Assembly: GCA_017849555.1 (NCBI GenBank)
Contig: JAFIGU010000036.1
Location: 22,241-86,240, forward strand
Source: Sphingomonas sp.
Lineage (GTDB): Bacteria; Pseudomonadota; Alphaproteobacteria; Sphingomonadales; Sphingomonadaceae
Direction of reading: 5' to 3'
DNA length: 64,000 bases
This document shows positions 14,609 to 61,944 of the stretch, one piece after another. The position numbers were made by a program, and so were the translations under genes. Positions within the stretch are counted from its first letter, which is position 1. Every line of letters starts with the position of its first letter. The notes beneath the pieces are model-generated. The model did no database searches and had not been told where the DNA came from. It saw only the letters and a program-made list of their open reading frames with translations.

Positions 14609-15234
14609 CGGAAATCCCTCGGATCGAAATGCGCGGCGAAGGCCGCCGCCAGCGTGTCACGGTCGAGCGGATCGAGCAGCGGCAGCCGGCCGAGTCGCTT
14701 GACCTGGCCGATGCTGGCGATCGTCTCCTCGCTGTCGGGCTGCGGGTCGCCGATGAAGGCGATGCCGAGGATCGGCACGTCGCGCCGGCGCAGCGCCTCG
14801 ATCGACAGCAAGCTGTGGTTGATCGTGCCGAGCGCGGTCCGCGCGACGATCACCACCGGCGCGCGCCAATGCGCGAACAGATCGGCGAACAGCAAGGTGC
14901 GCGACACCGGCACCATCACCCCGCCGGCGCCCTCGATCACCAGCGGCCCCGCCACTTCGGGAACAGCGAGCCGCGCCAGTTCGATCGTCACCCCGTCGAT
15001 CTCCGCCGCGCGGTGCGGCGAGCATGGCGTGGTCAGGCGATAGGCCTCGGGCAGAGCGCGGTCGGGCGACAGGCCGGCGAGTGCCGCGGCGCGCTCGATA
15101 TCGCCTTCGGGATCGACCCCGGCCTGCACCGGTTTCCAATAATAAGCCCCGAGCGCCCCCGCCAAAGCGGCGGAGAAGATCGTCTTGCCGACATCGGTGT
15201 CGGTGCCGGTGACGACGATCCGAGGATGGGTCAT
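14605..15234 (-). CDS. bioD: Dethiobiotin synthetase
   Basis: BioD closes the ureido ring of DAPA with CO2 and ATP. The 209-residue protein begins [18 protein letters not shown], whose [10 protein letters not shown] is the family P-loop. YYWKPVQAG and the [12 protein letters not shown] motif follow. The start at 15234 is chosen because it forms an ATGA overlap with the bioF stop, and because sequence further upstream is not BioD-like. Gene order and overlaps show translational coupling in the biotin operon. bioB and bioC are not in the window. Confidence 0.93.
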
Positions 15235-43386: not shown

Positions 43387-45447
43387 CTATTTCGCGGCCT
43401 CCGGCGACGCGCGATAGCGATCGAACCAGGCGATGATCGCGGCGGCCTTGGACGCGCTCTGCGAGGGGCGGGCGGTGAAGCCGCCGTGGCTCGCGCCCGG
43501 CACCTTGACCAGCGCGGTTGGCACGCCGCGGATCTGCAGCGCGGCATAATATTGCTCGCTCTCACTTACCGGGGTGCGATAATCCTCGCTGCCGACCACC
43601 ACCAGCGTCGGCGTCTTGACGTTGCCGACAAGGCTGAGCGGCGAGCGGTTCCAATAGCTCATCGGATCCTCCCACGGCTTCTTGGTGAACCAATAACGTG
43701 AGGTGAAGACGGTATTGTCCATCGTCAGCGCCTCGCTCGCCCAGTTGATCACCGGCTTCTGCGTCGCCGCCGCCTTGAAGCGATCGGTCTTGCCGACGAT
43801 CCACGCAGTGAGCACGCCGCCGCCCGACCCGCCGGTGACGAACAGATTGTTGGGATCGGCGGTGCCGTCGGCGATCGCGGCGTCGACCGACGCGATCAGA
43901 TCGTCATAATCCTGGCTGGGATAATTCTTGTCGATCAGATTGGCGAATTCGGCGCCGTAAGAGGTCGATCCGCGCGGGTTGGTCCACAGCACCGCATAGC
44001 CGGCGGCGGCGTAAAGCTGGACGTCGCTGGCGAAGCTCGGGCCATAAGCGCTGTTCGGGCCGCCGTGGATTTCGAGGATCAGCGGCACTTTCTGCCCCGG
44101 CTGGCGACCCGGCGGGGTGGCGAGCCAGGCGTCGATCGCGCGCCCGTCCGGCGCGGTGACCGCGATCTTGCGCACCGGGGCGAGCGCCTTCGCCTCGAGC
44201 AGGTTGGCGTTGAGGTTGGTCAGCCGCCGCGCCTTGCCGCCGGACGACACCCAGACGTCCGCTGGGGCACTGGCGTCGCCGCCGGTATAGGCCACCACGC
44301 CGCCGCGCGAGACCGAAAAGCTGCCCCCGGTATAGGGACGATCGATCCCGCCGCCGGCGATATTGTCGACGATCGGCGACAGATGCCCGTCGAGCGAGAT
44401 CCGCGCGAGCTTGCGTTTCCCGTGATCGTCGTAGCTGGCGTAGAGGCTCTTGCCGTCGCCCGCCCATTGCGCATCCTCGATCGAGCGGTCGAGCGAGGCG
44501 GTCAGCGAGCGCGGCGCGTCGGCCGCGCGGCCGCCGACATAGAGCTGGTTATTTTCATAGCTGCGCCGATGATCGTCGAACCCGATCCACGCGATGCGCG
44601 CGCCGTCGGGGGAGAAGAGCGGCGCTTCGTCCGGCCCGTCGCGGGTGGTAAGGGTGCGCAGCTCCCCGCTCGCGACATCGACCGCGAAGACGTCGCTGTT
44701 CATCACCTGCCGCTCGGCATCGGGGCCGCGGATCGCCGAGAACAGGATCGTGCGGCCGTCCTGGCTCCACGACAGCGGGCCATTGTCGTCGAACTTGCCG
44801 AACGTGAGCTGGCGCGCGCCGCCGCCGTCGGCCGAAACGACGAAGAGATGATCGTTGCCGGGCTTGATATAGCCGCCGCCGTCGGCGCGATAATTGACGC
44901 GATCGATCACCTCGAGCGGCTCGGCCCATTTCGCGCCCTCGGGCTTGGCGGGCGGCTTGCCGAGCCGCATCGGCTCGCCCGCCACCGTCGCGATATAGGC
45001 GAGCCGCCGGCCGTCGGGCGACCAGGCGAGCGCATTGGGATCGTTGGGCAACGTGGTCACCCGCGTCGCCCCCTCGCTGCCGAGCCAGCGAACGAACAAT
45101 TGCGGGTGCGCGCCGTCCGACGCGACATAAGCGATACGCGTGCCGTCGGGCGACCAGCGCGGGTTGGAGCCGCTCGCGGCGAATGGCGTCTGGCGGCCGC
45201 TGGCGACGTCGATCAGCCACAAGGAGGATTGCATCCGGTCGCTCATCACGTCGCCCGAGCGGCGGACATAGACGATCGTCCGCCCGTCCGGGCTGATCTG
45301 CGGATCGGCGGCGATCGAAAGCTGGAACAGGTCGCTTCCGGTGAAGGCGCGGGTGGGGCCATCCGCCGCGGCGGTGGCCGCCGGGGTTTCCGCCAGCGCG
45401 GGCGCGGCGGTGGTGACAAGAAGAAGAGCAGCGAGCAGGCGCATCAC
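43387..45447 (-). CDS. Exported S9-family peptidase (acylaminoacyl-peptidase-like)
   Basis: This 686-residue protein has a signal peptide (MMRLLAALLLVTTAAPALA). It has an N-terminal WD40-like beta-propeller of PD40 repeats (DPQISPDGRTIVYVRRSGD and similar in the first 400 residues). The C-terminal alpha/beta hydrolase domain has the nucleophile elbow VTGGSGGGVLTAW, VVGSEDYRTP (Asp) and PGASHGGF (His). This is the prolyl oligopeptidase family S9C layout, probably periplasmic, and it degrades short peptides. It is separate from the prolidase-like amidohydrolase by a 188-bp gap without recognisable genes. Full length; start has good signal context. Confidence 0.88.
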   Translation of the reverse strand: MMRLLAALLLVTTAAPALAETPAATAAADGPTRAFTGSDLFQLSIAADPQISPDGRTIVYVRRSGDVMSDRMQSSLWLIDVASGRQTPFAASGSNPRWSPDGTRIAYVASDGAHPQLFVRWLGSEGATRVTTLPNDPNALAWSPDGRRLAYIATVAGEPMRLGKPPAKPEGAKWAEPLEVIDRVNYRADGGGYIKPGNDHLFVVSADGGGARQLTFGKFDDNGPLSWSQDGRTILFSAIRGPDAERQVMNSDVFAVDVASGELRTLTTRDGPDEAPLFSPDGARIAWIGFDDHRRSYENNQLYVGGRAADAPRSLTASLDRSIEDAQWAGDGKSLYASYDDHGKRKLARISLDGHLSPIVDNIAGGGIDRPYTGGSFSVSRGGVVAYTGGDASAPADVWVSSGGKARRLTNLNANLLEAKALAPVRKIAVTAPDGRAIDAWLATPPGRQPGQKVPLILEIHGGPNSAYGPSFASDVQLYAAAGYAVLWTNPRGSTSYGAEFANLIDKNYPSQDYDDLIASVDAAIADGTADPNNLFVTGGSGGGVLTAWIVGKTDRFKAAATQKPVINWASEALTMDNTVFTSRYWFTKKPWEDPMSYWNRSPLSLVGNVKTPTLVVVGSEDYRTPVSESEQYYAALQIRGVPTALVKVPGASHGGFTARPSQSASKAAAIIAWFDRYRASPEAAK

Positions 45448-45635
45448 AATCCCCGGTTATGGTTTTGATGGCGAGAGAAATGCGGCGCGGCATCGCCGCT
45501 GGCAAGCGCGATATTGGCGCCGGATCGCTCTCGCCGGGATGTCGGAATAATTCTTACGCCGCCGGGCGCGAGGGCGTTCTAAAATATCGTTAGAGCTTTG
45601 GGTGCACTGCGATTTTCATCGATTGCCGATCGCGC

Positions 45636-47018
45636 TCAATGCGCGGAGCGCTCGTAAATTGCGCCGTCCTTCATGACGAAGCGGACCTTGCGTAACGCGC
45701 CGACCGACGCGAGCGGGTTCCCCTCGACCGCGATCAGATCGGCCAGCATGCCCGGCTTCACCGCGCCGATCCGATCCGCCATGCCGAACATCGCCGCATT
45801 GCCCGAGGTCGCCGCGATCGCGACTTGCGCCGGCGACATGCCCGCGGCCACCATCGCTTCGGCCTCGCGTGCATTGTCGCCATGCGCGAAGACGCCGACG
45901 TCCCCGCCGAGGCAGATCGCCACGCCCGCCTTCATCGCCGCGGCGAAGGCGCGGCGCGATTCCGCGACACCGGCGGGTGCCGGGTCGCCGCCATTCCACC
46001 CCTGATAGCGCGCGATCGCCTCCGATGCGGAAAGCGTCGGGCAGAGACCGGTCCCGCGCGCCTTCATCAACGCGAAAATCTCGGCATTTCCCTCGCCGCC
46101 GTGCTCGATCGTATCGACCCCCGCCAGAATCGCGCGGCGCATCCCTTCGGCGGTATGCGCATGTGCGGCGACCTTGCGCCCGGCGCTGTGCGCCGCCTCG
46201 ACCGCGGCGGCCATTTCGGATTGCAGATAGGTGGGGCGGCTCGGCTCCCCGGTGCCCCAGCGATAATCGGCATAGAGCTTGACCACATCGGCGCCCGCCG
46301 CGATTTGCCGCCGGACCGCAGTGACCAGATCGGGCCCGTCGGCCTGCTCGGCGCCGAGCGGGGTCGCCACGCCCGGCTCGAACCCGCGCGGCCCGTAGGA
46401 GCCAGTGGCGACGAGCGCGCGGCTGGCGATCAGCATCCGCGGCCCGGGAACGATATCCTGCTCGATCGCCTGCTTGAGCCCAGCATCGGCATAGCCGGCG
46501 CCTTCGGTGCCGAGATCGCGGACGGTGGTGAACCCGGCCATGAGCGTGCGCCGCGCCGCGACGGTGGCGCGCACCGTGCGCAGCGCGATCGCCTCGTGCA
46601 GCACCTGCTGATCCCACGGCGTTTCGTTATAGGGGTGCAGGAAAAGGTGCGAATGCCCCTCGATCATCCCCGGCATCAGCGTCGTGCCGGGCAGATCGAT
46701 GATCCTGGCGTCGGCAGGCGGCGAAACCGTCGCGCCGACCGCCTCGATCCGGTTGCCGCGCACCAGCACCGCCCATCCGCGATGGAGCACGGTCGTCGCG
46801 CCGTCGAAAATCGCGTCGGGCTTCAACAGATAGACCCCGCGGTCCGATTCCTGCGCCGTTGCGGCGTGGATCGGGGCGAGCGTGAAAACCAGCATCGCCG
46901 CGATCAACCGCACGATCGCGCTCGTTACGAATGCGGCCCCGCGCGCGCTGTCGGCGATTACCCTGTTCAAATCCCCAGCCCCCATTGTCGATCTAGCCAT
47001 CCCTCTCGCGACGACCAT
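45636..47018 (-). CDS. Exported amidohydrolase (Xaa-Pro/Xaa-Arg dipeptidase-like)
   Basis: This protein of about 460 residues belongs to the metal-dependent amidohydrolase superfamily: GHSHLFLHP (HxH), VVKLYADYRWG (carboxylated Lys), AAHAHTAEG, and IEHGGEGN (His), with CLGGDVGVF near the end (catalytic Asp). These features match the Sgx9260-type prolidases of caulobacters and sphingomonads. A signal-like stretch (SAIVRLIAAMLVFTLAPIHAATA) follows about 30 residues of uncertain leader, so the true start may lie inside: 47018, 47000 and 46985 are all in-frame ATGs without good ribosome sites. It is 45 bp downstream of the GH31 gene and possibly co-transcribed. Confidence 0.8.
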   Translation of the reverse strand: MVVARGMARSTMGAGDLNRVIADSARGAAFVTSAIVRLIAAMLVFTLAPIHAATAQESDRGVYLLKPDAIFDGATTVLHRGWAVLVRGNRIEAVGATVSPPADARIIDLPGTTLMPGMIEGHSHLFLHPYNETPWDQQVLHEAIALRTVRATVAARRTLMAGFTTVRDLGTEGAGYADAGLKQAIEQDIVPGPRMLIASRALVATGSYGPRGFEPGVATPLGAEQADGPDLVTAVRRQIAAGADVVKLYADYRWGTGEPSRPTYLQSEMAAAVEAAHSAGRKVAAHAHTAEGMRRAILAGVDTIEHGGEGNAEIFALMKARGTGLCPTLSASEAIARYQGWNGGDPAPAGVAESRRAFAAAMKAGVAICLGGDVGVFAHGDNAREAEAMVAAGMSPAQVAIAATSGNAAMFGMADRIGAVKPGMLADLIAVEGNPLASVGALRKVRFVMKDGAIYERSAH

Positions 47019-47063: not shown

Positions 47064-49133
47064 TTATCCGTGCATCAGGGAGCAGAAAAGCTCGGCGTGG
47101 CGGCTTCCTTCGCGCCAGAACACGGGCGGACGGCCGAAGGGGGCAGGGGTCTCGACGGTCGATCCGCCGGCATGTCGATCGCCGGACCAGAGGTGTACCC
47201 ACGTCGCGCCGGCGGGCAGATAGACCGCGCGGCTGTCCACACCCGCCTCGATCACCGGGGCGACGATCAGATCGCGGCCATAGCCATATTGCGTCTCGAT
47301 GCCCCAGCAATCGGCGTCATCCTCCCAGTCGAGGAACAGCGGGCGTTGCAACGGCAGCCCGGTCGCGACCGCCTCCTCGCACAAGGCGGCGACATAGGGC
47401 GCCAACCGTGCATGGACCCTGGTCATCGCGGCGAAATGGGCGAGGACTTCAGGATCGCCGTCGATCTGCAGATTGTCGTCCGGCCTATTCCCCTCGTGGC
47501 TGCGCATGACCGGCGAGAAGGCGCAGAGTTCGCTCCATCGCATCAGCAGTTCGGGGGTGCGGACGTTGCCATACAGGCTGGTGTATCCGCCGAGATCGCT
47601 ATGGTGGTACGCGTTCCCCACCATACCGGCAGAAAGCGCGGCGCGAATGACTGTGCCGATCCCGTCATGGCGGGAGAAGTCGACGCTCTGGTCGCCAGCC
47701 CAGAGCAACGGGCAGTAACGGCCGACATCGGTGTAGCCGGCGCGCATGAAGAACAATGCCTCGCCGGTCTTTCCGCGCGAGGCGATCGCGCGCGCGTTGA
47801 CCTCGGCCCAGATCGTCGGCCAGGCATTATGCGCGAGCATGCCGTCGGTGCCGTCGTGGAGGCGGATGTCGGTGGGGAGATATTCCCCGAAATCGGCCAT
47901 CCAGCCCGACAGGCCGATATCGAGCATCTCGCGCCCGATCACGCGCTCGGCGAACCAGTTCGCCGCGGCGGGATTGGTGAAATCGACGATGCCGCAATCA
48001 AATTCGCCGAAATCGACGATATAGGGCTCGTCGGCATCGAGCCGGCGCGCGAGCAACCCGGCATCGACCGCCTCGACATAGAGATCGCCGTCCACCGCGA
48101 GATACGGATTGACATAGCCGAGAAAGCGGATGCCGCGCGCGTTCAGCGCCGCGATGCGCTCGCGCAATGCCGGATAACGCGCGTCATTGGCTTTCCAGTC
48201 CCAGAACAGGCGCTTGCCGAAGCTCGTCTCGCGCAGCCCGACCCAATCCTCGCACCATAATCCGGTCACCACCGCGCCGGCGGCGATGATCGCTTCCATC
48301 CGCGCGAAGCTTTCCATGCCTTGCTTGAGCCCGAGGATCGCGCCCTCATAAGCCCAGGCGGGCAGCGGCGGCTGGCGGCCGAACCTCGTCGACAGGATCC
48401 CGGCCAGCTCGGCGAAGCGATCCGCCGCGAGCAGCTCGATCCGCGCAGGGATCTCCCATGCCTCGATCTCGTGGAACGCCGGATCGCGGAAATCGAAACA
48501 GGCATAGGCGGTGGTATCGAGGTGGAGCGCATAATGCCGCGAGGAGACATAGGTCGGCTGCGGATAATTGGTGTTCCAATAATCGCCGCCCGAGCGCCCG
48601 TCGCGGTCGCACTGGAAGGTCAGCAGAGTCGATTTGTCGCGACCGACGCCCGGCTCCGAGGTCCATAGCGGGAAGCGCCGGCCCGCGAGGTCGAAATAGG
48701 ACAATTGCTCGCCGCCGCCCCACAGGCGTTCGCCGGGCTGCGCGACGCAGCGCAGCCACAATCGGTTGAGGCGATCGGCCAGCGCGGTGAGGGCAAGCGC
48801 GCCGCCCTCCACGGTGATCGCGAGCAGCGGATCGCCGCCCGGCGTCGCCGCCAGCGCGACCGTCGCCCCGTCGATCAGCGCATGGCGCAGCGGAATGCGC
48901 GCATCGAGCCGGTCGGACAGGAAATAATTGCCGCGATACATGTCGACGTCGGCGCGGCCCTCGCCGACGAAGACCGCGGGATCGTCCGGCCGGTGGCGCA
49001 GCACGAGCGCCGCGCCGATCGACAGATCGAAGCCACCGTCGACGGCGCGCAGGCGCAGGTCGCTCGCGCCGCTGGCAAGCGCGCCGGCGACGGTGGTGCC
49101 GCCGACCGGCGGTCGCGAACTATCCTCGGCCAT
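47064..49133 (-). CDS. GH31 sulfoquinovosidase (SmoI/YihQ-type)
   Basis: This 689-residue cytoplasmic protein has no signal peptide. The family hallmark LWGGGEQLSYFDLAGRRFPLWTSEPGVGRDK is shared with E. coli YihQ. Residue set: nucleophile Asp414 in GWMADFGEYLPTD; acid/base Asp481 in AGDQSVDFSRHDG; Tyr517 in HHSDLGGYTSL; Arg308 and Trp311 in TSFGKRLFW. Lys270 (GLKQG) and Glu295 (CEDW) replace the Gln262/Gln288 pair of E. coli, the 'KE' variant known from the Agrobacterium enzyme. These residues bind the sulfonate, so release of sulfoquinovose from SQ-glycerol or SQDG glycosides is the expected reaction. GGAAAGGAAG precedes the start. It is the third gene after the reductase and monooxygenase genes. 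Confidence 0.85.
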   Translation of the reverse strand: MAEDSSRPPVGGTTVAGALASGASDLRLRAVDGGFDLSIGAALVLRHRPDDPAVFVGEGRADVDMYRGNYFLSDRLDARIPLRHALIDGATVALAATPGGDPLLAITVEGGALALTALADRLNRLWLRCVAQPGERLWGGGEQLSYFDLAGRRFPLWTSEPGVGRDKSTLLTFQCDRDGRSGGDYWNTNYPQPTYVSSRHYALHLDTTAYACFDFRDPAFHEIEAWEIPARIELLAADRFAELAGILSTRFGRQPPLPAWAYEGAILGLKQGMESFARMEAIIAAGAVVTGLWCEDWVGLRETSFGKRLFWDWKANDARYPALRERIAALNARGIRFLGYVNPYLAVDGDLYVEAVDAGLLARRLDADEPYIVDFGEFDCGIVDFTNPAAANWFAERVIGREMLDIGLSGWMADFGEYLPTDIRLHDGTDGMLAHNAWPTIWAEVNARAIASRGKTGEALFFMRAGYTDVGRYCPLLWAGDQSVDFSRHDGIGTVIRAALSAGMVGNAYHHSDLGGYTSLYGNVRTPELLMRWSELCAFSPVMRSHEGNRPDDNLQIDGDPEVLAHFAAMTRVHARLAPYVAALCEEAVATGLPLQRPLFLDWEDDADCWGIETQYGYGRDLIVAPVIEAGVDSRAVYLPAGATWVHLWSGDRHAGGSTVETPAPFGRPPVFWREGSRHAELFCSLMHG

Positions 49134-49158
49134 CGCTTCCTTTCCCCGGCGCGCCTTG

Positions 49159-50229
49159 TCAGTCCAGCGTCAACGGCGCGTGCTGCAGCCGCGGCAGGAC
49201 GTGGCGCGCGAAAAGATCCGCCTCGGCGATATGCGGATAGCCCGAGAGAATGAAGGCCTCGATCCCCATGTCCTGATACATGCGCAATTTGGCGAGCACC
49301 TGATCGGCATCGCCGACGATCGCCGCGCCGCAGCCGGAGCGCGCGCGCCCGACCCCGGTCCAGAGGTTCTCCTCGGCATAGCCGTCGTCGGTCGCGCCCT
49401 CGCGCAGCGCGGTCTGCGCGGCGACCCCGGTCGAGGCGGTATCGAGCGACTTGTTGCGGATCGCCTCGCCGCTCGCCGCATCGAGCTTGGAGAGCAGCCG
49501 GTCGGCGGCGCTCCGCGCCTCCGCCTCGGTCTCGCGCACCACGACATGTGCGCGATAGCCGAAGCACAAGGTGCGCCCGTGCTTCGCCGCGCGCGCGCGC
49601 ATGTCCTCCATGATCCCGCGCACGACTTCCTTCTTGTCGGGCCACATCAGATAGACGTCGCAGCCCTGCGCCGCGGCCTCGCGCGCGTCTTCGGAAAGCC
49701 CGCCGAAATAGAGCGGCGGGCATTTGCCCGACACGGTCCTGACCCCGGGGGGATCGAGCTTGAGCTGCCAGAATTCGCCCTGATGATCGAGCGGCTCGCC
49801 GTTGAGCAAGGTCTTCAGGATCCGCATCGCCTCGAGCGTGCGCGCGTAACGCGGCGCCGATGCCAGTTTCTCGCCGGGCAGATCGGAGGAGATGATGTTG
49901 ACGGTGAGCCGCCCGCCGAGGATGCGATCGATCGTCGCGATCTGCCGCGCGAGCTGCGGCGGCCAGCTCTCGCCGATGCGGACCGCCATCAGCAGGCGGA
50001 GGCGACGGAGCATCGGCGCGATCGCGGCGGCGAAGGCGGTGGTGTCGATGCCGAGCGCATAGCCCGAGGGGAGCAGGATATTGTCGAATCCGCCGGTCTC
50101 CGCCTGGAGGACGATATCGCGACAATGCTCCCAGCTCGATCGCAGCATCGCATCGGGCGTGCCGAGAAATTCATAATCATCGTCGCAGAGTGCGGAGAAC
50201 CAACTGACTTCGCACTGGCCGTTCGTCAT
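49159..50229 (-). CDS. SsuD-type FMNH2-dependent sulfonate monooxygenase (candidate SQ monooxygenase, SmoC-like)
   Basis: This 356-residue luciferase-like monooxygenase is clearly SsuD-related: YEFLGTPDAM, RLRLLMAVRIGESWPPQLARQIATIDR, PLYFGGLSEDAREAAAQGCDVYLMW, NLWTGVGRARSGCGAAIVGD and IEAFILSGYPHIAEAD. The position of SsuD active-site Cys54 (PTGRSC) is PSGYAL here, so substrate or peroxide handling differs. With the neighbouring sulfoquinovosidase it fits SmoC, which opens the C-S bond of sulfoquinovose to give 6-oxo-glucose and sulfite. The start at 50229 overlaps the reductase stop (ATGA). No flavin reductase gene is near; one elsewhere must supply FMNH2. Confidence 0.8.
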   Translation of the reverse strand: MTNGQCEVSWFSALCDDDYEFLGTPDAMLRSSWEHCRDIVLQAETGGFDNILLPSGYALGIDTTAFAAAIAPMLRRLRLLMAVRIGESWPPQLARQIATIDRILGGRLTVNIISSDLPGEKLASAPRYARTLEAMRILKTLLNGEPLDHQGEFWQLKLDPPGVRTVSGKCPPLYFGGLSEDAREAAAQGCDVYLMWPDKKEVVRGIMEDMRARAAKHGRTLCFGYRAHVVVRETEAEARSAADRLLSKLDAASGEAIRNKSLDTASTGVAAQTALREGATDDGYAEENLWTGVGRARSGCGAAIVGDADQVLAKLRMYQDMGIEAFILSGYPHIAEADLFARHVLPRLQHAPLTLD

Positions 50230-51134
50230 GGCAGTCTCTCTCCAAGGCTCGCCTCGAGGACGGCGTACCATTGGGCGCGGGTCCAGCGGGGCGTATAGGC
50301 GTCCGGCAGCTTTGCGATCCGGGACGGATTCTGGGTGCCGGCGATCGGGATGATCCCGGCGGGATGCGCCATGATCCAGCTATAGGCGGCAGCGGCGCGA
50401 TCGACCGCGGCCTCCTCGGCCTTGGCGTCGAGCAGCGCGGCGACCGCGCGGGCGCGATCGTCCTGCGGCGCGGCGATCCGCCCGCCCCCGAGCGGGGACC
50501 AGGCGAGCACGCTCATCCGCTCGGTCATCGCCTGATCGAGCAGCCCGTTGAATAAAGGCGCGGTGGCGAGCGGGGAGAATTCCGGCTGGTGGCTGGCGAG
50601 CGGGACGGGGAGGAAGGCGGCCAGCGCCGCGGCCTGCGCCGGCGTGTGATTGGAGACGCCGACCGCAACGATCTTGCCGGCTTGCCGCGCGTCGTCGAGC
50701 GCGCGCGCCACCTCTTGCGGATGCGCGAGCAGATCGGGGCGGTGGATCTGATAAAGGTCGATCCGCTCGCACCCGAGCCGCGCGAGCGACGCATCGATCG
50801 CCTGCGCAAGATAGGCGCGGCTCGAATCATACGGCACGCCGAGCCGGATGCCACCCTTGCTGGCGAGGATCATGCGGTCGCGCAGTGCCGGGGCCTCGCG
50901 GAGCACCTTGCCGAGCAATTCCTCGGCCGCGCCAAACGGCTGGCCATTATCGGGGCCGTAGATGTCCGCGGTATCGAGCAACGTGATGCCGGCGCCCAGC
51001 GCCGCCTCGACCCGCGCCCGGGCGAGCGCGACGTCATCCCCGGCGAACCGCCACATTCCCCACGCCAGCGTGCTGACGGTGATGCCCGATTGACCGAGCG
51101 ACGCAAAGCGATCTGGCGTTTTGAGATAGGACAC
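50226..51134 (-). CDS. Aldo/keto reductase (candidate 6-oxo-glucose reductase, SmoB-like)
   Basis: This TIM-barrel AKR of about 302 residues has LLDTADIYGPDNG (catalytic Asp-Tyr region), ASKGGIRLG (Lys), IDLYQIHRPDLL (His), VAVGVSNHTP and IIPIAGTQNPSRI for NAD(P). It is the YdhF-like subclass, as is the known SmoB. In the sulfo-SMO route this enzyme reduces 6-oxo-glucose to glucose. The start GTG 51134 (VSYLKTPDRFASLGQSG) is preferred; the open frame continues to ATG 51200 but crosses the promoter and operator (51126-51141). First gene of the reductase-monooxygenase-sulfoquinovosidase operon. Confidence 0.75.
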   Translation of the reverse strand: MSYLKTPDRFASLGQSGITVSTLAWGMWRFAGDDVALARARVEAALGAGITLLDTADIYGPDNGQPFGAAEELLGKVLREAPALRDRMILASKGGIRLGVPYDSSRAYLAQAIDASLARLGCERIDLYQIHRPDLLAHPQEVARALDDARQAGKIVAVGVSNHTPAQAAALAAFLPVPLASHQPEFSPLATAPLFNGLLDQAMTERMSVLAWSPLGGGRIAAPQDDRARAVAALLDAKAEEAAVDRAAAAYSWIMAHPAGIIPIAGTQNPSRIAKLPDAYTPRWTRAQWYAVLEASLGERLP

Positions 51135-51141
51135 CGTTGTC
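51126..51141. promoter_or_regulatory. LacI-type operator, site 1 (reductase operon)
   Basis: ATAGGACACCGTTGTC contains the palindromic core GACACCGTTGTC with a central CG, as usual for LacI-family operators. It covers the reductase GTG start and lies 146 bp from the divergent TBDR start. It matches site 2 at 54961-54976 in 14 of 16 positions. Confidence 0.6.
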
Positions 51142-51286
51142 TTATCGCAGCGATCTGGTCTAAAGAAAAGCCGGAAAAGATATCCGCGGCGCCGGTCCAT
51201 CCCGGCCGAATCCGGTCGAACGACAGCTAAGTCGCTGTTAGATAGAGCGTTTCACGCGCCGAAATTGGGGAAGGGGAGAGTTCTGT

Positions 51287-53626
51287 ATGTCCAAGCATCG
51301 CCTTTTGAGCGCCGGCCTGATGGCGAGCTGCGCGTTCATCGCGCTCGCCGCTCCAGCCTATGCCCAGGTCGAAACCGCGCCCGCGCCTGCCGAGCTGGCG
51401 GCAAATTCTGGTGATATCGTTGTCACCGCGCAGAAGCGCAGCGAACGGTTGCAGGACGTGCCGCTCGCGGTCTCGGTCGTCGGCGGGGCGATGCTGGAAA
51501 GCACCGGCAAGCCGAGCATCGAAAGCGCGGCGACGCTCGTTCCGGCGCTGAACTTCCAGAAATCGGGGACGACGCTCAATCAGTCGCTGTTCCTGCGCGG
51601 AGTCGGCACCACTACCTTCTCGATCGCCGGCGAACCGTCCGTATCGGCCGTGGTGGATGGGGTCGTCTATGCGCGCTCCGGCGAGGCGTTCGGCGATCTG
51701 GTCGATATCGAGCGGCTCGAGGTGCTGCGCGGCCCGCAGGGGACGTTGTTCGGCAAGAACGCCTCGGCGGGGGTGATCAACGTCGTGACCGTCCAGCCCA
51801 AGCCGGGTTTCGGCGGCTATGTCGAGGGCCAGTGGTTTTCCAACGGCAATGAGGCGCGCGTCCGCGGCGCGCTCAACGTGCCGCTCAGCGATACATTGCT
51901 GACCCGCGTCACCGGCTTCTACGGCCATTATGACGGCAATATCCGCAACCTTGCGACGGGCGGGCGCGTCAACGGCTATGAACATTACGGTTTCCGCGGC
52001 CAGGTCAAATGGATGCCGAGCGCATCGACCACGATTTCGCTGATCGCGGATTATCACCGCAACGACGACAATTGCTGCGCCGAGCTGATCGGCACCGGCC
52101 CGCTCAACGCCGCGGGCGCAGCGATCTCCAGCCCGGCCTTTGCGGTATTGCCGACGCCACGCGGCGACCGGACACGCGCGGTCAACCAGAATTACGTCAC
52201 CCGCACCCGCGAAACCGGGTGGGGCGTCTCGGCACAGATCGATACCGAGCTCGGCACGCAGACGGTGACCAGCATCACCGCCTATCGCAATTACAAGAAC
52301 ACCGAGATCCGCGACGGCGATTTCCTGCCCGCGGCCTATGTCGGCTTCCCGCAGCTGCAGGATTTCGGGCCGCAGACCAGCAACACCTTCAGCCAGGAAT
52401 TGCGGCTGACCTCGCCGTCGAAGCAATTCCTCTCCTATGTCATCGGGCTCTATTATTCGCGCGCGGAGTCCGAACGGATCTTCTCGCGCTCGGTCGTTTC
52501 ATGCGGCACGGCGGCGCCGGCGACGCTGATCCCGTGCGGCACGCCCGGCGCGCCGGCAACGACCACGCCTTATGGCATCGCCGATTTCGGGTCGGTGTTC
52601 AAAAATATCGCGGCGTTCGGGCAAGCGACGGCGAATTTCACCAGCCGCTTCCGCTTCATCGGCGGGCTGCGCTGGACGGGCGACCAGCTCGATGTGTTCC
52701 ACAGCCGCACCACCACGCTCGCCGGCCCCGGCATCCAGCCGAGCTTCCCGACGACGCCGACCGGCACCGGCGCCCCCGCGACGATCTTCACCGGCAAGGC
52801 GACCAATACCAATGTGTCGGGCAAGGCGACGCTGCAATATGATCTCTCGCCGGAGGTCGTCGCCTATGGCGGCTATACCCGCGGCTATAAGGGGCCGGCG
52901 TTCAACGTTTTCTATAATCTCACCGCGACCGGCACCAATGTCATTGCACCCGAAACCTCGAACAGCTACGAGATCGGGCTGAAGAGCAATCTTCTGGGTG
53001 GCGCGCTGGTGCTCAACCTCGCGGCCTTCTACGCTAAATATTACAATTTCCAGGCCAATAACCCCGATCTCGTCGCGGGGGTGGTGGTCACCCGCTTCAC
53101 CAATGCTGGCGAAGTTTCAACCCGCGGCATCGAGGCGGATCTGATATTGCGCCCGGCGACCGATCTCTCGATCTCGGGCGGGCTGGCTTATACCGACGCC
53201 AAGGTCGACCAGTTCTTCCGCGCACCCGGCGCGCCGGTCAGCGCGGTGATTCCGGCGGGCACCTCGCTGCCGTTCGCGCCCAAGTGGAAGGGCTCGCTCA
53301 GCGCCGATTATCGCTGGCGGACCGGCGGGCCGGTCGATCTCTTCCTTGGCGCGCAGGGAAGCTATCAGTCGAAGCAGCTCGCGCTCTTCTCGCCCGATGC
53401 GGTGCAGCGCCAGTTGGGGACGATCCACGGCTATGCCCTGGTCAATCTCTCGGCGGGGGTAGGGGATCGCGACGATCGCTATCGGCTGACCTTCCAGGTC
53501 CGCAACCTGTTCGACCAGAGCTTCGCCGCGGCGATCCAGAATGGCGGCCCCTCGGGGTCGTATCGCTATCAGATCCCGCGCGATGCCGATCGCTATTACG
53601 GGGTTACCGCTCGCGTGAACTTCTGA
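51287..53626 (+). CDS. TonB-dependent receptor, sulfoquinovose locus
   Basis: This 779-residue receptor has a signal peptide (MSKHRLLSAGLMASCAFIALAAPAYAQ), TonB box-like GDIVVTAQKRSERLQDVPLAV, a plug with FLRGVGTTTFSIAGEPSVSAVVDGV and VEVLRGPQGTLFGKNASAGVINVVT-type conserved stretches, and a barrel ending YYGVTARVNF. It is divergent from the reductase-monooxygenase-GH31 operon and convergent with the MFS gene. It would carry sulfoquinovosyl glycerol or another SQ-glycoside across the outer membrane (inference from neighbours). The start has AAGGGGAGAG upstream. Terminator at 53649. Confidence 0.85.
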   Translation: MSKHRLLSAGLMASCAFIALAAPAYAQVETAPAPAELAANSGDIVVTAQKRSERLQDVPLAVSVVGGAMLESTGKPSIESAATLVPALNFQKSGTTLNQSLFLRGVGTTTFSIAGEPSVSAVVDGVVYARSGEAFGDLVDIERLEVLRGPQGTLFGKNASAGVINVVTVQPKPGFGGYVEGQWFSNGNEARVRGALNVPLSDTLLTRVTGFYGHYDGNIRNLATGGRVNGYEHYGFRGQVKWMPSASTTISLIADYHRNDDNCCAELIGTGPLNAAGAAISSPAFAVLPTPRGDRTRAVNQNYVTRTRETGWGVSAQIDTELGTQTVTSITAYRNYKNTEIRDGDFLPAAYVGFPQLQDFGPQTSNTFSQELRLTSPSKQFLSYVIGLYYSRAESERIFSRSVVSCGTAAPATLIPCGTPGAPATTTPYGIADFGSVFKNIAAFGQATANFTSRFRFIGGLRWTGDQLDVFHSRTTTLAGPGIQPSFPTTPTGTGAPATIFTGKATNTNVSGKATLQYDLSPEVVAYGGYTRGYKGPAFNVFYNLTATGTNVIAPETSNSYEIGLKSNLLGGALVLNLAAFYAKYYNFQANNPDLVAGVVVTRFTNAGEVSTRGIEADLILRPATDLSISGGLAYTDAKVDQFFRAPGAPVSAVIPAGTSLPFAPKWKGSLSADYRWRTGGPVDLFLGAQGSYQSKQLALFSPDAVQRQLGTIHGYALVNLSAGVGDRDDRYRLTFQVRNLFDQSFAAAIQNGGPSGSYRYQIPRDADRYYGVTARVNF

Positions 53627-53648
53627 TCGCTTCGCGATGTATCATATT

Positions 53649-53678
53649 GGCCCTTCCCGCGCACCTGCGGGGAGGGCC
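53649..53678. terminator. Bidirectional terminator between TBDR and MFS genes
   Basis: GGCCCTTCCCGC (53649-53660) and GCGGGGAGGGCC (53667-53678) form a 12-bp stem with one G-T pair and a 6-base loop, in the 69-bp gap between convergent stops. Confidence 0.65.
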
Positions 53679-53695
53679 GTTTCATCGGGCGACGA

Positions 53696-54937
53696 TCAAT
53701 GCCCGGCAAAAACCGGGCGGGCCGCATCCGGCTCGGCGAGTTCGAGCTTCGGCACCAGAAGCTGGATGAGCAGCAGCCCGACGAGATAGGACCCTGCGCA
53801 AACATAGAGCAGCGGCGCATAGCCATAGCCGCGTTCGAGCGAGAAGCCGGCGGCCTCGATCATCGCCATGCCCGAAAGATTGCCGGCGAAGGCGCCGATG
53901 CCGATCGCGGTGCCGATCATCCGCGCCGGGAAGATATCCGCGGTCATCCCGAACACATTGGTCGAGAACCCCTGATGCGCAAAGAGCCCGAGGCCGAGCA
54001 GCGCCGCGGCGGCCCAGGCATCGTCGACGTGGAGAACCAGCGCCACCGGCAGGATCAGCAAAGCATAGAGCAGCATCGATCCCTTGCGCGCGCGGTTCAT
54101 CTCGACCCCGCGCGACAGCAGCCAGGTCGGCAGGATGCCGCCGCTCAGCGATCCCAGCGCGGCGAGCGTATAGACCCATGCGATCGGCACGCCGAGCTCG
54201 CCCTGCGACAGCCCGAACACGCGGTGGAAAAGATCGGGCATGAAGAACAGCAGGAACCACCAGCATTGGTCGGAAAATGCCTTCGCCGCGATGATCGCCC
54301 ATTGCCGACGGTCGCGGAGCAGTGATGCCCAGGGCACGCGTTGCGCCGGGATATCGGTAGCAGCGGGCGCGGTCCGCGGCGTCACCGCAAGCCACGCGAC
54401 CACCCATACCAACCCGAGTCCACCCGCGATCAGGAACGCAGCGCGCCACCCCAGCCATAGCGCCAGCGGAGGGATCGAAAGCGGCGCGACGACCGCGCCG
54501 AAATTCGCCGCCATATTGCCGATGCCCAGCATCAGCGACCGTTTCTCGGGCGGGAAATAGGTCGCGGCGGTCTTCACCTGCGCCGGGGTGCCGATCGACT
54601 CGGCGACGCCGAGCGCGGCGCGCGCGGCGACGAACCCGCCGACCGTGGTGACGAAGGCATGCGCCATCCCGGCGATGCTCCACGCGCCCACCCCGATCGC
54701 GAAACCGCGGCGCAATCCAATGCGGTCGATGAACCAGCCGGTGCCGAGGAACGCCACCGCGGCACTGAACTGGAACGCCGACGCCATATGGCTGTAATCG
54801 CGATTGGACCAGCCGAACTCCTGTTCAAGCAGGGGCTTGAGCAGCGCGATGATCTGCCGATCGACATAATTGAGCATGATGGCGATGAACGCCAGCCCGA
54901 CGATAAGCCATTGTCGGATGCCGATCCGCTGCGTCAC
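53696..54937 (-). CDS. MFS transporter, ACS/ExuT-like, sulfoquinovose locus
   Basis: This 413-residue, 12-helix protein begins MTQRIGIRQWLIVGLAFIAIMLNYVDRQIIALLKPLLEQEFGWSNRDYSHMASAFQFSAAVAFLGTGWFIDRIGLRRGFAIGVGAWSIA. This is the anion:cation symporter branch (ExuT, GudP type) that moves acidic sugars. A sulfosugar is a reasonable substrate. GTG 54937 is chosen because GGAGAGG lies 3-9 bases upstream; the longer open frame to 55108 crosses the operator and the end of the LacI gene. A LacI-type operator lies 24 bp upstream. Confidence 0.85.
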   Translation of the reverse strand: MTQRIGIRQWLIVGLAFIAIMLNYVDRQIIALLKPLLEQEFGWSNRDYSHMASAFQFSAAVAFLGTGWFIDRIGLRRGFAIGVGAWSIAGMAHAFVTTVGGFVAARAALGVAESIGTPAQVKTAATYFPPEKRSLMLGIGNMAANFGAVVAPLSIPPLALWLGWRAAFLIAGGLGLVWVVAWLAVTPRTAPAATDIPAQRVPWASLLRDRRQWAIIAAKAFSDQCWWFLLFFMPDLFHRVFGLSQGELGVPIAWVYTLAALGSLSGGILPTWLLSRGVEMNRARKGSMLLYALLILPVALVLHVDDAWAAAALLGLGLFAHQGFSTNVFGMTADIFPARMIGTAIGIGAFAGNLSGMAMIEAAGFSLERGYGYAPLLYVCAGSYLVGLLLIQLLVPKLELAEPDAARPVFAGH

Positions 54938-54960
54938 GATCCTCTCCGCTCCCCCGCCGT

Positions 54961-54976
54961 ATAGGACAACGATGTC
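54961..54976. promoter_or_regulatory. LacI-type operator, site 2 (transporter)
   Basis: ATAGGACAACGATGTC has the palindromic core GACAACGATGTC and sits between the LacI gene stop (54996) and the MFS start (54937). It shares 14 of 16 positions with site 1 upstream of the reductase operon. Confidence 0.65.
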
Positions 54977-54995
54977 ACAGAGAAAGCCGCGATGG

Positions 54996-56024
54996 TCAAG
55001 CGGCGGGGGGTGCGGTCGATTCCCTGACGACGATCTCGTGGCCGAGGCGTCGTTCCCCTTCGGCGGCGGGGTCGAGCAATTGGTCCGCGGCGGCGGCGGC
55101 CATCGCACGGACCGGCTGGCGCACCGTGGTCAGCGCCGGCCACACCGCCTGCGCGAGCGGGGCATCGTCGAAACCAGTGACCGACAGCCTTTCGGGCACC
55201 GCAATGCCCCGGCGATGCGCGGCGGCCAGCACCCCCGCGGCGAGATCGTCGCTCGACGCGACGATCGCGGTGGGCGGGGCAGGGAGGTCGAGCAGCGCGT
55301 CAGCCGCGGCGCGCCCGGAGTCGAAATCGAACTGGCCCTGCCGCACATAATCGAGATCGACATCGACGCCGGCGCTGGAAAGCGCCCGGACATGCCCCGC
55401 CAGCCTTTGCCCCGACGCGGCATAGCCGCGATCGCCGACGATGAAGCCGATGCGGTGATGGCCGAGCGACAGCAGATAGGACGTCATGTCGAACGCCGCC
55501 CGCTCATTGTCCATCAGGACGGCGCGCGCGGATTGCAGCGGCCCGCCGGGCTGCAACCGCACGAACGGAATCGAGCGCCGCTCCAGCTCGTCGATCACCC
55601 GCCGGTCGTCGCAGGCGGGCGGGGCGAGGATCAACCCGTCGGGATGCGCCTGATCGATCAGCGCGACGATATCGTCGAGCAGCGTGGGCGAGGACCGATC
55701 ATAGGGCTGGGCGATCATCCGCACATGCGCCGCGGCGCACCGCTCGCGCACCCCGGCCTGGATCTCGTAGACGTACCACGGATTGGGGTTATCGCAGATC
55801 AGCGCGACCTGATGCGATCGCCGACCCTTTAGCGCGCGCGCGGCGTCGCTCGGTTGGAAGCCGATCTCGGCCATCACCTCCAACACCCGCTTGCGCTTTT
55901 CCGCGCTGACATATTGCTGATCGTTGATGACGCGCGACACGGTCTTGATCGACACGCCGGCGATCCTCGACACGTCGCGGATCGTCGGGCGCTGATTGAC
56001 CGCAGGCGGAAGAGCGCTGTTCAT
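54996..56024 (-). CDS. LacI-family regulator of the sulfoquinovose locus
   Basis: This protein of about 342 residues has the N-terminal LacI helix-turn-helix and hinge (PTIRDVSRIAGVSIKTVSRVINDQQYVSAEKRKRVLEVMAEIGFQPSDAARALKGRRS). The periplasmic-binding-like effector domain has VALICDNPNPWYVYEIQAGV, LGHHRIGFIVGDRGY and VTGFDDAPLAQAVWPALTTVRQP. ATG 56024 gives a standard N-terminus; the open frame upstream to 56129 is not conserved. It lies directly upstream of the MFS gene, and a LacI-type operator is found at two places in the locus. The effector is probably SQ or a derivative. Confidence 0.87.
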   Translation of the reverse strand: MNSALPPAVNQRPTIRDVSRIAGVSIKTVSRVINDQQYVSAEKRKRVLEVMAEIGFQPSDAARALKGRRSHQVALICDNPNPWYVYEIQAGVRERCAAAHVRMIAQPYDRSSPTLLDDIVALIDQAHPDGLILAPPACDDRRVIDELERRSIPFVRLQPGGPLQSARAVLMDNERAAFDMTSYLLSLGHHRIGFIVGDRGYAASGQRLAGHVRALSSAGVDVDLDYVRQGQFDFDSGRAAADALLDLPAPPTAIVASSDDLAAGVLAAAHRRGIAVPERLSVTGFDDAPLAQAVWPALTTVRQPVRAMAAAAADQLLDPAAEGERRLGHEIVVRESTAPPAA

Positions 56025-56186: not shown

Positions 56187-57722
56187 TCAAAACATCCTCG
56201 CCGGCCCGGTCGATTGCGGTCCGCGCCCGGGAATTTTCAGATCGCCGCCGACAGGAACGGTTGCATCGGGCGAGACGCGAATGACGCCGATGCCATTCTC
56301 GATAGAGATTTTCGTCCCGAACGGCTCGGAATATTTTTGAAGGTTGGTCAGTATCTTTCTGGCCATCGCCGGCGACGGCGTTTGAGGAATGCTTGATCGG
56401 GACCAGGGCGTCCTGGACGCATCCGCCCCCAGATCCACCGGATAGATTCTGATCTCGACCAGCTTTCCATCCACATATTTGGTCTTCGCGACATATGCCG
56501 TCAGATTGATCTCCTGCTGAAGCCAGTCGTTGCCCAGTTCGATCGCCTCGATATTGGTCAGATTAAGCGCGTTGGGCGGAGAATCGTCGCTGCCGAAGCG
56601 CTGCACCGAGAAATTGCCGTGATTGTAGAAAATCGGCCGCCCTTTGTAGATTTCGATGCCCTGCATGGTATGATTTCCGTGCCCCACGTACATATCCATC
56701 CCGTTGTCGACGAGCTGATGCACCAGATCAACGAGATAGTCGGGCGGGTAATGATCCTGCGAATAAGCCTGATAGGCGTATCGGTTTTCGTGCACATGCA
56801 TCGTGAACATCACGAAATCCGAATATTCCTTGGCGTTGCGGACGGCCAGCAGTTGCGACTGAACATCGGCGGGGTTCATCTCATAATGGAAGGCGCCCGG
56901 CTTCTCGCCGACCATATAATTCTTGCCGAGAAACTCGAGCTTGCCGGGCTCGTCGTGCGGCAATCCTGTCGGGCGCGCGACATCGGGCTCGTTGCGGCGG
57001 TCTAGAATCGACTGGCGAATGGCGCGGAGCTGCTCGAGCTGTTCGGCGGTGACCACGTTCCAGACGGTGAGGCGAAGCGGGTTCATGCCCGGCACTTCGC
57101 CGACGTCATTGCCGTTCTTGTTGCGCGCGATCGGACCATCGGCGACCGCGCCAACCGGGAAGGCCGCGATCGCGGCGACGCGCCCCTGCGGCAATTCCTG
57201 GAACACCGGCTGACGCGCAATCGAGAGGTTGGGGCCGTAGCCGGGCCGCTTGATCCCGACCGCGTCGAGCCATTTGATCGTCGAAACCTGCGCCGCCTCG
57301 CCGCCATCGGCCTCGCCCGGCGCGACGATATCGAAACCGAGATCGGCAAGCGATTGCGCCAGCTCCTTGGGCGCCCAGTTATTGCCATAGCCATTGACGC
57401 CGGCCCATTCCCGTCGATCGACGAGAAAGCCCTCCAGATTGCCGATCGTGGTATCGGCCGACCTCAGCACTTCCTTGATTTCCGGGCTGATCCGCTGATC
57501 CGCGGGCTCCTGGAACAGCAGATCGCCGGTGGATGCGACCACGAACGTCCCGCTCATCTTGTTCCGCAGCTCCTTCGAAAGGCCGCGCCATTGGAAGGTC
57601 GCTCTGTCGGGCGCGGCGCGGAACGGCTGCGCGGCGGCGTCGCTCATCGTAACGAGCATTGCGGCCGCGATGATCGATTGGGTGGCGAGACGCCGCGAGA
57701 AGGCTGACCGGTTCATAGACAA
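56187..57722 (-). CDS. Exported CapA-family protein
   Basis: This 511-residue protein has a signal peptide (SRRLATQSIIAAAMLVTMSDAAAQ). The CapA/PgsA metallophosphatase-like fold shows VVASTGDLLFQEP, DTTIGNLEGFLVDRREW, FDIVAPGEADGG (where family members usually have AxNNHxxD), FVMFTMHVHENRY, DMYVGHGNHTMQGIEIYKGRPIFYNHGNFS. CapA proteins are implicated in poly-gamma-glutamate synthesis or in phosphoester hydrolysis. No capB/capC is near; an exported hydrolase role in a nutrient cluster with the MHS symporter (start 59029) and TBDR is as likely. ATG 57716 is an alternative start. The 162-bp gap 56025-56186 beyond its stop shows no gene. Confidence 0.8.
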   Translation of the reverse strand: MSMNRSAFSRRLATQSIIAAAMLVTMSDAAAQPFRAAPDRATFQWRGLSKELRNKMSGTFVVASTGDLLFQEPADQRISPEIKEVLRSADTTIGNLEGFLVDRREWAGVNGYGNNWAPKELAQSLADLGFDIVAPGEADGGEAAQVSTIKWLDAVGIKRPGYGPNLSIARQPVFQELPQGRVAAIAAFPVGAVADGPIARNKNGNDVGEVPGMNPLRLTVWNVVTAEQLEQLRAIRQSILDRRNEPDVARPTGLPHDEPGKLEFLGKNYMVGEKPGAFHYEMNPADVQSQLLAVRNAKEYSDFVMFTMHVHENRYAYQAYSQDHYPPDYLVDLVHQLVDNGMDMYVGHGNHTMQGIEIYKGRPIFYNHGNFSVQRFGSDDSPPNALNLTNIEAIELGNDWLQQEINLTAYVAKTKYVDGKLVEIRIYPVDLGADASRTPWSRSSIPQTPSPAMARKILTNLQKYSEPFGTKISIENGIGVIRVSPDATVPVGGDLKIPGRGPQSTGPARMF

Positions 57723-57739
57723 CTCCTGAGCGGGAAGGG

Positions 57740-59029
57740 TTAGGCGATGCCAGCCGCGGCGCGCTTAGCCGCGCCACGCGAGAGGAGGAGCGTTGCGAGG
57801 AGACTGATCGTCGCCGCCGCGGAGAGCCACGCCCCCGGCATCGCGGGATTGTCGGTTGCCGCGATCAGATAGGTCGCGAGAGCCGGGGTGAACCCGCCGA
57901 AAATCGCGGTGGCCAGGCTGTAGGCCAGCGAGAAGCCGGCCGTTCGCACGCGGGGCGGCATGACCTCGGTCAGATAGACGATCATCGCGCCGTTATAGCC
58001 CGCGTAGATAAGCGCGAGCCACAACTCGACCGCGAGCAATCGGCCGAAGCTCGGCTGCGCGGCGAGCCAGCTCAGCGCCGGATAGCCCGAGACGATCGCG
58101 AGAAGCGCGCAGGTTATCAGCAGAGGCTGACGGCCGACCCGATCGGACAGCGCCCCCATGATCGGCAGCAGCGCAAAGTTGCTGAGGCCGACACATAAGG
58201 TGACCAACATCGCACTCGTCGGCGATAGATCGAGGACGCTGCTGCCATAGGTCGGGGTATAGGCGGTGATCATGTAGAAGAAGACCGTCGTCATCACCGC
58301 CATCAGCGCGCCAAGGACGATGGTCGGCAGGTTCCGGCCGACGCTCGCGAACACCTGCGATGCGGTCGGGCGCACCTTCTGCGCTTCAAATTCGGCGGTT
58401 TCCTGGAGCAGGCGTCGGATGATGAAGAGGAAGGGGATCAGCGCCGATCCGATGAAGAACGGGATGCGCCAGCCCCATGCGTTGATTTGCTCGATCGGCA
58501 GCATGGCGTTGAGCACCAGGCCGATCAGCGCGGCGAAGACCACCGCGATCTGCTGGGAGGCCGATTGCCATGAGACATAGAAGCCCCGATTCCCCTTCGT
58601 CGCGATTTCCGACAGATAGACCGAGACGCCACCCACCTCGACGCCTGCGGACAGCCCCTGCACCAGGCGGCCGATCAGGACGAGGAAAGGCGCCACCAGC
58701 CCGATCTGGGCATAGCCCGGCATACAGGCGATCGAGAGGGTGCCCAGCCCCATCAGGGCCAGCGTCAGAAGCAATCCCTTCCGACGCCCGTGGCGGTCGA
58801 TATACGCGCCCAGCACGACAGCGCCGACCGGCCGCATGAGGAAGCCCGCGCCGAAGGTCATGAGCGACAGAAGGAGACTGGCGAACTCGTTGCTCGTCGG
58901 AAAGAAAGTCTCGCCAATGGCTTTGGCATAATAGCCGAACACCATGAAATCATACATTTCGAGGAAATTGCCGCTCGATACGATGAAGATCGACTTCACC
59001 TTTTCGCGCCGCTCGACTGAGCTCACCAT
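57740..59029 (-). CDS. MHS-family citrate/tricarballylate-type proton symporter
   Basis: This 429-residue, 12-helix protein opens with KVKSIFIVSSGNFLEMYDFMVFGYYAKAIGETFFP and has GAYIDRHGRRKGL, LVQGLSAGVEVGGVSVYLSEIATKGNRGFYVSWQSASQQIAVVFAA and AVELWLALIYAGYNGAMIVYLTEVMPPRVRTAGFSLAYS. These resemble CitA/TcuC citrate-proton symporters. It is co-directional with CapA (17-bp gap) and with the large TBDR upstream. Together with a TctD-type regulator this suggests uptake of a tri- or dicarboxylate. Confidence 0.85.
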   Translation of the reverse strand: MVSSVERREKVKSIFIVSSGNFLEMYDFMVFGYYAKAIGETFFPTSNEFASLLLSLMTFGAGFLMRPVGAVVLGAYIDRHGRRKGLLLTLALMGLGTLSIACMPGYAQIGLVAPFLVLIGRLVQGLSAGVEVGGVSVYLSEIATKGNRGFYVSWQSASQQIAVVFAALIGLVLNAMLPIEQINAWGWRIPFFIGSALIPFLFIIRRLLQETAEFEAQKVRPTASQVFASVGRNLPTIVLGALMAVMTTVFFYMITAYTPTYGSSVLDLSPTSAMLVTLCVGLSNFALLPIMGALSDRVGRQPLLITCALLAIVSGYPALSWLAAQPSFGRLLAVELWLALIYAGYNGAMIVYLTEVMPPRVRTAGFSLAYSLATAIFGGFTPALATYLIAATDNPAMPGAWLSAAATISLLATLLLSRGAAKRAAAGIA

Positions 59030-59077
59030 CAGGATGTCCTTAATGAAGCGATGATGTCGGATGACGGGAACGAGCGG

Positions 59078-61924: not shown

Positions 61925-61944
61925 AAATCCCCCTCCTGGATTTC

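Follow-up and report, generated by a model that had tools for sequence, protein, structure and literature searches.

A predicted sulfo-SMO-type sulfoquinovose locus with linked TonB-dependent receptor and MFS symporter genes in a Sphingomonas genome

The locus and the proposed pathway

A stretch of 64,000 nucleotides from a Sphingomonas sp. genome (contig JAFIGU010000036.1; hereafter the window) contains six genes that, judging from the homologues of their products, very likely encode sulfolytic catabolism of sulfoquinovose (SQ), the sugar of plant sulfolipids, by the pathway called sulfo-SMO or, equivalently, sulfo-ASMO. The products would comprise a TonB-dependent receptor (TBDR) and a major facilitator superfamily (MFS) symporter for uptake, a GH31 sulfoquinovosidase (SQase), an SQ monooxygenase (SMO), an aldo/keto reductase (AKR) and a LacI-type repressor. 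A first-pass annotation had placed these six genes at the positions below, three of them in a coupled operon, and both proposals held, each gene being backed by Pfam. The source assembly measures 4.87 Mb, with 97% completeness and 4.8% contamination. The genes and two predicted operators are as follows.

47064..49133, minus strand: GH31 sulfoquinovosidase (SmoI/YihQ-like), from phmmer, NF007746 and key residues
49159..50271, likely ATG at 50229, minus strand: FMNH2-dependent SQ monooxygenase, SMO (SmoC/SquD-like), from phmmer
50226..51200 as the longest frame, likely GTG at 51132-51134, minus strand: aldo/keto reductase, AKR (SmoB/SquF-like), from phmmer and the operator frame
51126..51145, no strand: predicted LacI-type operator ATAGGACACCGTTGTCTTAT, covering the probable AKR start, upstream of the divergent TBDR gene
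51287..53626, plus strand: TonB-dependent receptor, TBDR (PF00593, PF07715)
53696..54937, minus strand: MFS symporter, nearest DgoT (6e9n match; TIGR00893 below cut-off)
54961..54980, no strand: second predicted operator ATAGGACAACGATGTCACAG, past the LacI stop codon and ahead of the MFS start
54996..56024, minus strand: LacI-family regulator (PF00356, PF13377)

The SMO ATG at 50229 and the AKR stop codon share an ATGA, and GH31 begins 25 bases past the end of SMO, which together indicate a coupled operon. This operon is divergent from the TBDR gene, beyond which lie the MFS and then the LacI gene, both on the minus strand. The conserved operator puts the likely AKR start at the GTG inside it (51132-51134) rather than at 51200; the MFS gene probably starts at the GTG at 54937. 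The SMO shares 99% identity with its Sphingomonas lycopersici counterpart, in agreement with the sphingomonad host proposed earlier, and the six proteins of the S. lycopersici locus are 98.8-100% identical to those of the window.

In the proposed pathway, SQ-glycerol or SQ would cross the outer membrane via the TBDR and then the inner membrane via the MFS symporter, both putative assignments, after which a cytoplasmic GH31 would liberate SQ. SMO, given reduced flavin mononucleotide (FMN) by a reductase encoded elsewhere, would split the C-S bond to yield 6-oxo-glucose and sulfite, and AKR would reduce 6-oxo-glucose to glucose, which the cell would then use; we infer the GH31, SMO and AKR steps from homologues. 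The sulfite would probably be oxidised or exported through genes elsewhere in the genome, and repression of the AKR-SMO-GH31 operon, the TBDR gene and the MFS gene probably falls to the LacI protein, acting at the two operators.

Identity of the three enzymes

The closest solved relatives of GH31, SMO and AKR, ranked nearest to 5ohy, 7olf and 7bby respectively, are presumably the Agrobacterium sulfo-SMO enzymes or their kin, which bears out the pathway type named in the first-pass annotation. For GH31, the top phmmer matches were 5ohy (972 bits) and 5ohs (970 bits), followed by 8r56, 6pnr and 5aed/5aee (779-680 bits), a group in part named YihQ by its depositors, and 213 of 308 residues are identical over 5ohy residues 212-519. 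A reading as an ordinary alpha-glucosidase or xylosidase was rejected on these scores, 680-972 bits to the YihQ-like group vs at most 153 bits to the remaining solved GH31 enzymes. The model NF007746 scores the protein at 878 bits (cut-off 553), and five sulfoquinovosidase residues, R308, W311, Y517, D414 and D481, are all kept. We take R308, W311 and Y517 to be sulfonate contacts and D414 and D481 to act in catalysis, the five being presumably decisive in Agrobacterium sulfoquinovosidases. No signal peptide was seen by eye in GH31, which is probably cytoplasmic, and a glycoside such as SQ-glycerol would thus need to be imported intact.

The best solved matches of SMO are 7olf (387 bits) and 7oh2 (377 bits), which we take to be SQ monooxygenases, though their depositors name them otherwise; other SMOs of the genus score at least 624 bits. 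Alkanesulfonate monooxygenases follow at 229 bits (7jv3) and 205 bits (1m41), and the SsuD model TIGR03565 gives 256 bits, far under its curated cut-off of 518, so that an assignment as SsuD was discarded. Residues R240, H242, R311 and Y345 are invariant across nine aligned SMO sequences. AKR matches best 7bby/7bbz (160 bits), presumably SmoB, with 1og6 (YdhF) next at 139 bits, consistent with the proposed conversion of 6-oxo-glucose into glucose. The part of PMC13372026 consulted defines sulfo-SMO clusters by SmoB and SmoC homologues encoded together; here AKR and SMO overlap in ATGA. An associated sulfoquinovosidase, as expected for the pathway, is present too, GH31 lying inside the operon.

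Conservation of the uptake genes

The first-pass annotation had regarded the uptake genes as unlike the Agrobacterium transporter SmoEFGH, which agrees with our searches: a scan of ten proteins encoded between 43.4 and 59.0 kb gave no ATP-binding cassette (ABC) component, so no SmoEFGH-type transporter was found there, and a UgpC-like ATPase query (E 1e-3) matched nowhere in the window. Among solved structures, the TBDR has only distant relatives, by name siderophore, B12, heme and colicin/pesticin receptors. The closest solved relative of the MFS protein is the D-galactonate transporter 6e9n (119 bits); TIGR00893 gives 171 bits, under its cut-off of 395. The D-galactonate carrier belongs to a symporter family for anionic sugars, so this placement fits an anionic sulfosugar. 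The TBDR and MFS proteins are putative outer- and inner-membrane importers, respectively, of SQ or SQ-glycerol.

In a scan of one genome per species (84,980 species), the best 80 of at least 579 SMO relatives were taken (L049-L128), a choice by which the sample leans to sphingomonads. As 25 of the 80 loci are shorter than 19 kb, gene counts mostly refer to the 55 of at least 19 kb; they come from tblastn with bit-score cut-offs of our choosing, since heuristic gene calling had overlooked SMO in 7 of 100 loci. A further set (L029-L048) was left out of the counts because it includes species repeated in L049-L128. AKR was found in 52 of the 55 loci, MFS in 45, TBDR in 42, LacI in 36, a PF03601 exporter in 33, GH188 in 29, GH31 in 20, FMN reductase in 14, SorA in 13, glycerol kinase in 9 and UgpC in 2; SorA-type or PF03601 genes occur in 34. 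The idea that TBDR and MFS uptake is peculiar to this strain was rejected on these counts, as 42 of the 55 relatives' loci have the TBDR and 45 the MFS gene alongside SMO, and the special adaptation to outer-membrane uptake that the first pass had proposed is not supported.

Both SQases were in no case found in one locus (25 of the 80 loci carry GH31, 41 GH188 and 14 neither). That the two families are distributed in a complementary way is already published (PMC10755693, consulted in part). An absence of GH31 is not to be read as SQase loss, an interpretation ruled out by the neighbouring Gfo/Idh/MocA gene, which is GH188-like (best matches 8qc2/8qc3); the sulfonate residues R166, L170 and K172 are present in the GH188-like protein of L033.

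The link between TBDR and SMO was also followed across 61 genomes, of which 37 belong to the genus (the source genome among them) and 24 lie elsewhere in the order, at cut-offs of our choosing (SMO E 1e-60, TBDR E 1e-100, GH31 E 1e-80, GH188 E 1e-60) and with at most the best 17 TBDR candidates scored per genome. SMO was detected in 22 genomes, including 21 of the genus, and the TBDR in exactly those 21 and none of the other 16, so that the two genes are jointly present or absent in all 37 genus genomes (Fisher p about 8e-11, uncorrected for kinship). GH31 in 5 genus genomes and GH188 in 16 together make up the 21 SMO-positive ones with zero overlap, and the 16 SMO-less genomes have no TBDR, GH31 or GH188 at these cut-offs. 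Outside the genus, the TBDR was found in G039, G048 and G057, of which G057 alone has SMO; GH188 was found in G057 and also in G042, which has no SMO.

Three Rhizobium loci (L121, L123, L145) carry a sphingomonad-like SMO, 73-74% identical to that of the window, adjoining ABC sugar-transporter genes, and both UgpC-containing loci among the 55 are from Rhizobium with such an SMO (73% identity). The L145 stretch has no annotated AKR, and the AKR query fell under its cut-off in L121 and L123. A sphingomonad-like SMO beside an ABC transporter suggests that the gene moved horizontally and that the transporter was exchanged. On Bacteroidota plasmids from Emticicia (L146) and Spirosoma (L147), SMO relatives of 45-47% identity have SusC/SusD-type or symporter genes as neighbours, which may represent another uptake variant.

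Predicted operators and LacI control

LacI-type control, as the first pass had supposed, is probable, with predicted operators at the AKR start and before the MFS gene. Where only a short gap separates AKR from TBDR, the AKR start carries a 20-base palindrome in eight relatives, S. lycopersici not counted; it is ATAAGACACCGTTGTCTTAT, exact or on the opposite strand, in seven of them and has two mismatches in L051. The site at 51126-51145 differs from this conserved 20-mer by one mismatch (0 matches in 100 shuffles), and a genome-wide search allowing three mismatches gave no other site. The second site, at 54961-54980, has a perfect 12-base core and four mismatches to the 20-mer, which exceed that limit and explain its absence from the genome-wide search. 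An initial palindrome scan of the intergenic regions had given nothing useful. A further perfect core at position 15190, between two genes resembling biotin genes by eye, is not flanked by AT-rich sequence as the other sites are, and was discounted as probably a chance match.

In the named loci, the core (at most one mismatch) was sought in an interval running from 250 bases ahead of each tblastn match start to 60 bases past it. It was found at 46 of 72 AKR, 29 of 55 MFS, 25 of 41 GH188 and 20 of 37 exporter genes vs 20 of 543 control intervals before other genes, and at none of the 79 SMO genes. In L049 an early start of the match leaves the true site outside the interval, and a different sequence entered the count. 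A perfect core is present in 26 of 36 loci with LacI vs 4 of 19 without a detected LacI. At all 38 perfect-core sites near AKR, core bases 8-10 form a start codon (28 ATG, 9 GTG, 1 CTG) that is in frame and open into AKR, so that the operator overlaps the probable AKR start (GTG 51132-51134 in the window). A bound repressor would therefore be expected to cover the AKR initiation region.

Flavin supply and sulfite disposal

The first-pass annotation had found no flavin reductase in the window, and this extends further: the window has no match for the FMN reductase type of the relatives' loci, or for SorA, the PF03601 exporter, GH188 or glycerol kinase, and the SmoA-type family PF01613 had no match in the whole assembly in a search that was positive in 13 of 14 control genomes. 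Elsewhere in the assembly, a PF03358 FMN reductase (contig C81) is 46% identical to a relative's locus-linked one, a SorA-type molybdoenzyme (C99), next to a frame with a CxxCH motif, is 62% identical to a relative's locus-linked gene product, and a PF03601 exporter (C113) reaches 61%. The operator was not seen in the fetched stretches around these three genes, which are candidates for flavin supply and sulfite handling.

Alternative explanations

The alternative that survives best, though we consider it unlikely, is that the enzymes act as stated while the TBDR and MFS carry other cargo, such as a plant glycoside or a sugar acid, with SQ entering via porins or other carriers. The distance of the solved TBDR matches, the kinship of the MFS protein with a D-galactonate carrier and the 13 of 55 loci without a TBDR would all fit this. 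However, the TBDR tracks SMO throughout the 37 genus genomes whichever SQase type they carry, it has one intergenic operator in common with the AKR-SMO-GH31 operon, and an operator also stands in front of the MFS gene.

Much less probable is that the locus serves a different sulfosugar, or that its role is to scavenge sulfur during sulfate starvation and not to supply carbon. The SMO does belong to the alkanesulfonate-monooxygenase superfamily (256 bits to TIGR03565), whose founding members serve sulfur supply. Scavenging would nevertheless sit poorly with LacI-type control, with an AKR through which the carbon skeleton would be regained, with the presence of an SQase in every one of the 21 SMO-positive genus genomes, and with the SorA-type or PF03601 genes in 34 of 55 loci, which point to sulfite in excess. 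That GH31 is a plain alpha-glucosidase or alpha-xylosidase and SMO an SsuD, neighbours by chance, is extremely improbable in view of the GH31 scores, the kept sulfonate-contact residues, an SMO score below the SsuD cut-off and a linkage conserved across genera, even though NCBIfam calls NF007746 'alpha-glucosidase', as do several depositors.

Several observations weigh against the sulfo-SMO reading with TBDR and MFS uptake. Its support comes from sequence, and what the TBDR and MFS would carry is deduced from linkage. Besides the 13 loci without a TBDR, 6 of the 55 have neither SQase, and AKR is only modestly nearer SmoB than YdhF. TBDR matches occur in two SMO-less genomes of the order (G039, G048) and GH188 in one (G042), and the best TBDR is on a different contig from SMO in G009 and in G006, where it is near contig ends. 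The operator core is rarer at TBDR (14 of 52) and GH31 genes (4 of 20) and hardly found at LacI genes (2 of 47); 10 of 36 LacI loci have no perfect core, five of these having a one-mismatch site before AKR, and a perfect core is present in 4 of 19 loci without a detected LacI.

Relation to known systems

The sulfo-ASMO pathway of Novosphingobium aromaticivorans (SquD, SquF) was reportedly described by Liu et al. in 2021, and the Agrobacterium sulfo-SMO pathway, SmoA-I, is said to have been described by Sharma et al. in 2022. In the parts consulted, PMC9594981 and PMC12890257 (section 2.1) report the same pathway as biochemically characterised in N. aromaticivorans, and both reviews also report it as characterised in Agrobacterium. 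The locus is thus another case of a known pathway, and a reading as a new one is not supported: the pathway chemistry is not new, being already known in close relatives. N. aromaticivorans resembles our case in its SQ monooxygenase and AKR, its sphingomonad host and, according to the excerpt of PMC9594981, the lack of a clustered SsuE flavin reductase, which indicates that clustering of the reductase is not required for sulfo-SMO. With Agrobacterium the window has homologues of SmoI, SmoC and SmoB in common; it differs in having TBDR and MFS genes, and the ABC transporter and PF01613 flavin reductase were not found.

For Novosphingobium we compared N. pentaromativorans (L143), which carries GH31, LacI, AKR, SMO and TBDR as the window does, yet in the order GH31-LacI-AKR-SMO, with the TBDR divergent from GH31 and no MFS match in the stretch. 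Directly after its SMO (13117-16157) stand genes for glycerol-3-phosphate dehydrogenase and glycerol kinase, which fit SQ-glycerol as substrate. Sphingomonas sp. Leaf17 is listed among SQ-degrading clusters in a 2023 figure legend (PMC10755693, consulted in part). Its locus (L111) has SMO, AKR, TBDR, MFS and LacI like the window, and differs in carrying an NAD-dependent GH188 instead of GH31 and in having FMN reductase and exporter genes in the locus. In mangrove and freshwater incubations, Novosphingobium was among the active assimilators of SQ and had predicted sulfo-SMO genes, according to the accessible portion of a 2026 study (PMC13372026).

Neighbouring genes

Close behind GH31 on the same strand (43387-47018) are genes for a Dpp5-like peptidase and an Xaa-Pro-dipeptidase-like amidohydrolase, both below cut-off, which are possibly read through from GH31 and have no evident role with SQ. 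On the other side (56187-61993), a PGA_cap-domain protein (lasso-peptide epimerase model, below cut-off) adjoins a TcuC-type tricarballylate symporter (above cut-off), which is followed by a frame at 59078-61993 that looks TBDR-like by eye; this region is possibly a separate uptake locus.

Significance

According to the excerpt of PMC12890257, sulfoquinovose ranks among the most abundant organosulfur compounds. The enzymes that degrade it are known, while its entry into these bacteria and the switching of the pathway are less so, and the TBDR-MFS pair and the operator seem under-described in the searchable literature: judged by titles and abstract openings, none of the open-licence sulfoquinovose papers listed is a study of this TBDR. 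On balance, we lean towards the view that the TBDR and the DgoT-like MFS protein form a dedicated, energised uptake system for sulfoquinovosides common to sphingomonads and related alphaproteobacteria, in which one LacI protein would co-regulate desulfonation and, in relatives, a putative sulfate exporter. If so, this would be a TonB-dependent sulfosugar route; a characterised example was not found in the open-licence literature searched, from which absence in print does not follow.

In summary, the linked TBDR, MFS and predicted operator make SQ uptake and its control in these bacteria directly testable, and SMO and AKR together with either SQase and the TBDR would offer a better marker set for recognising such bacteria.

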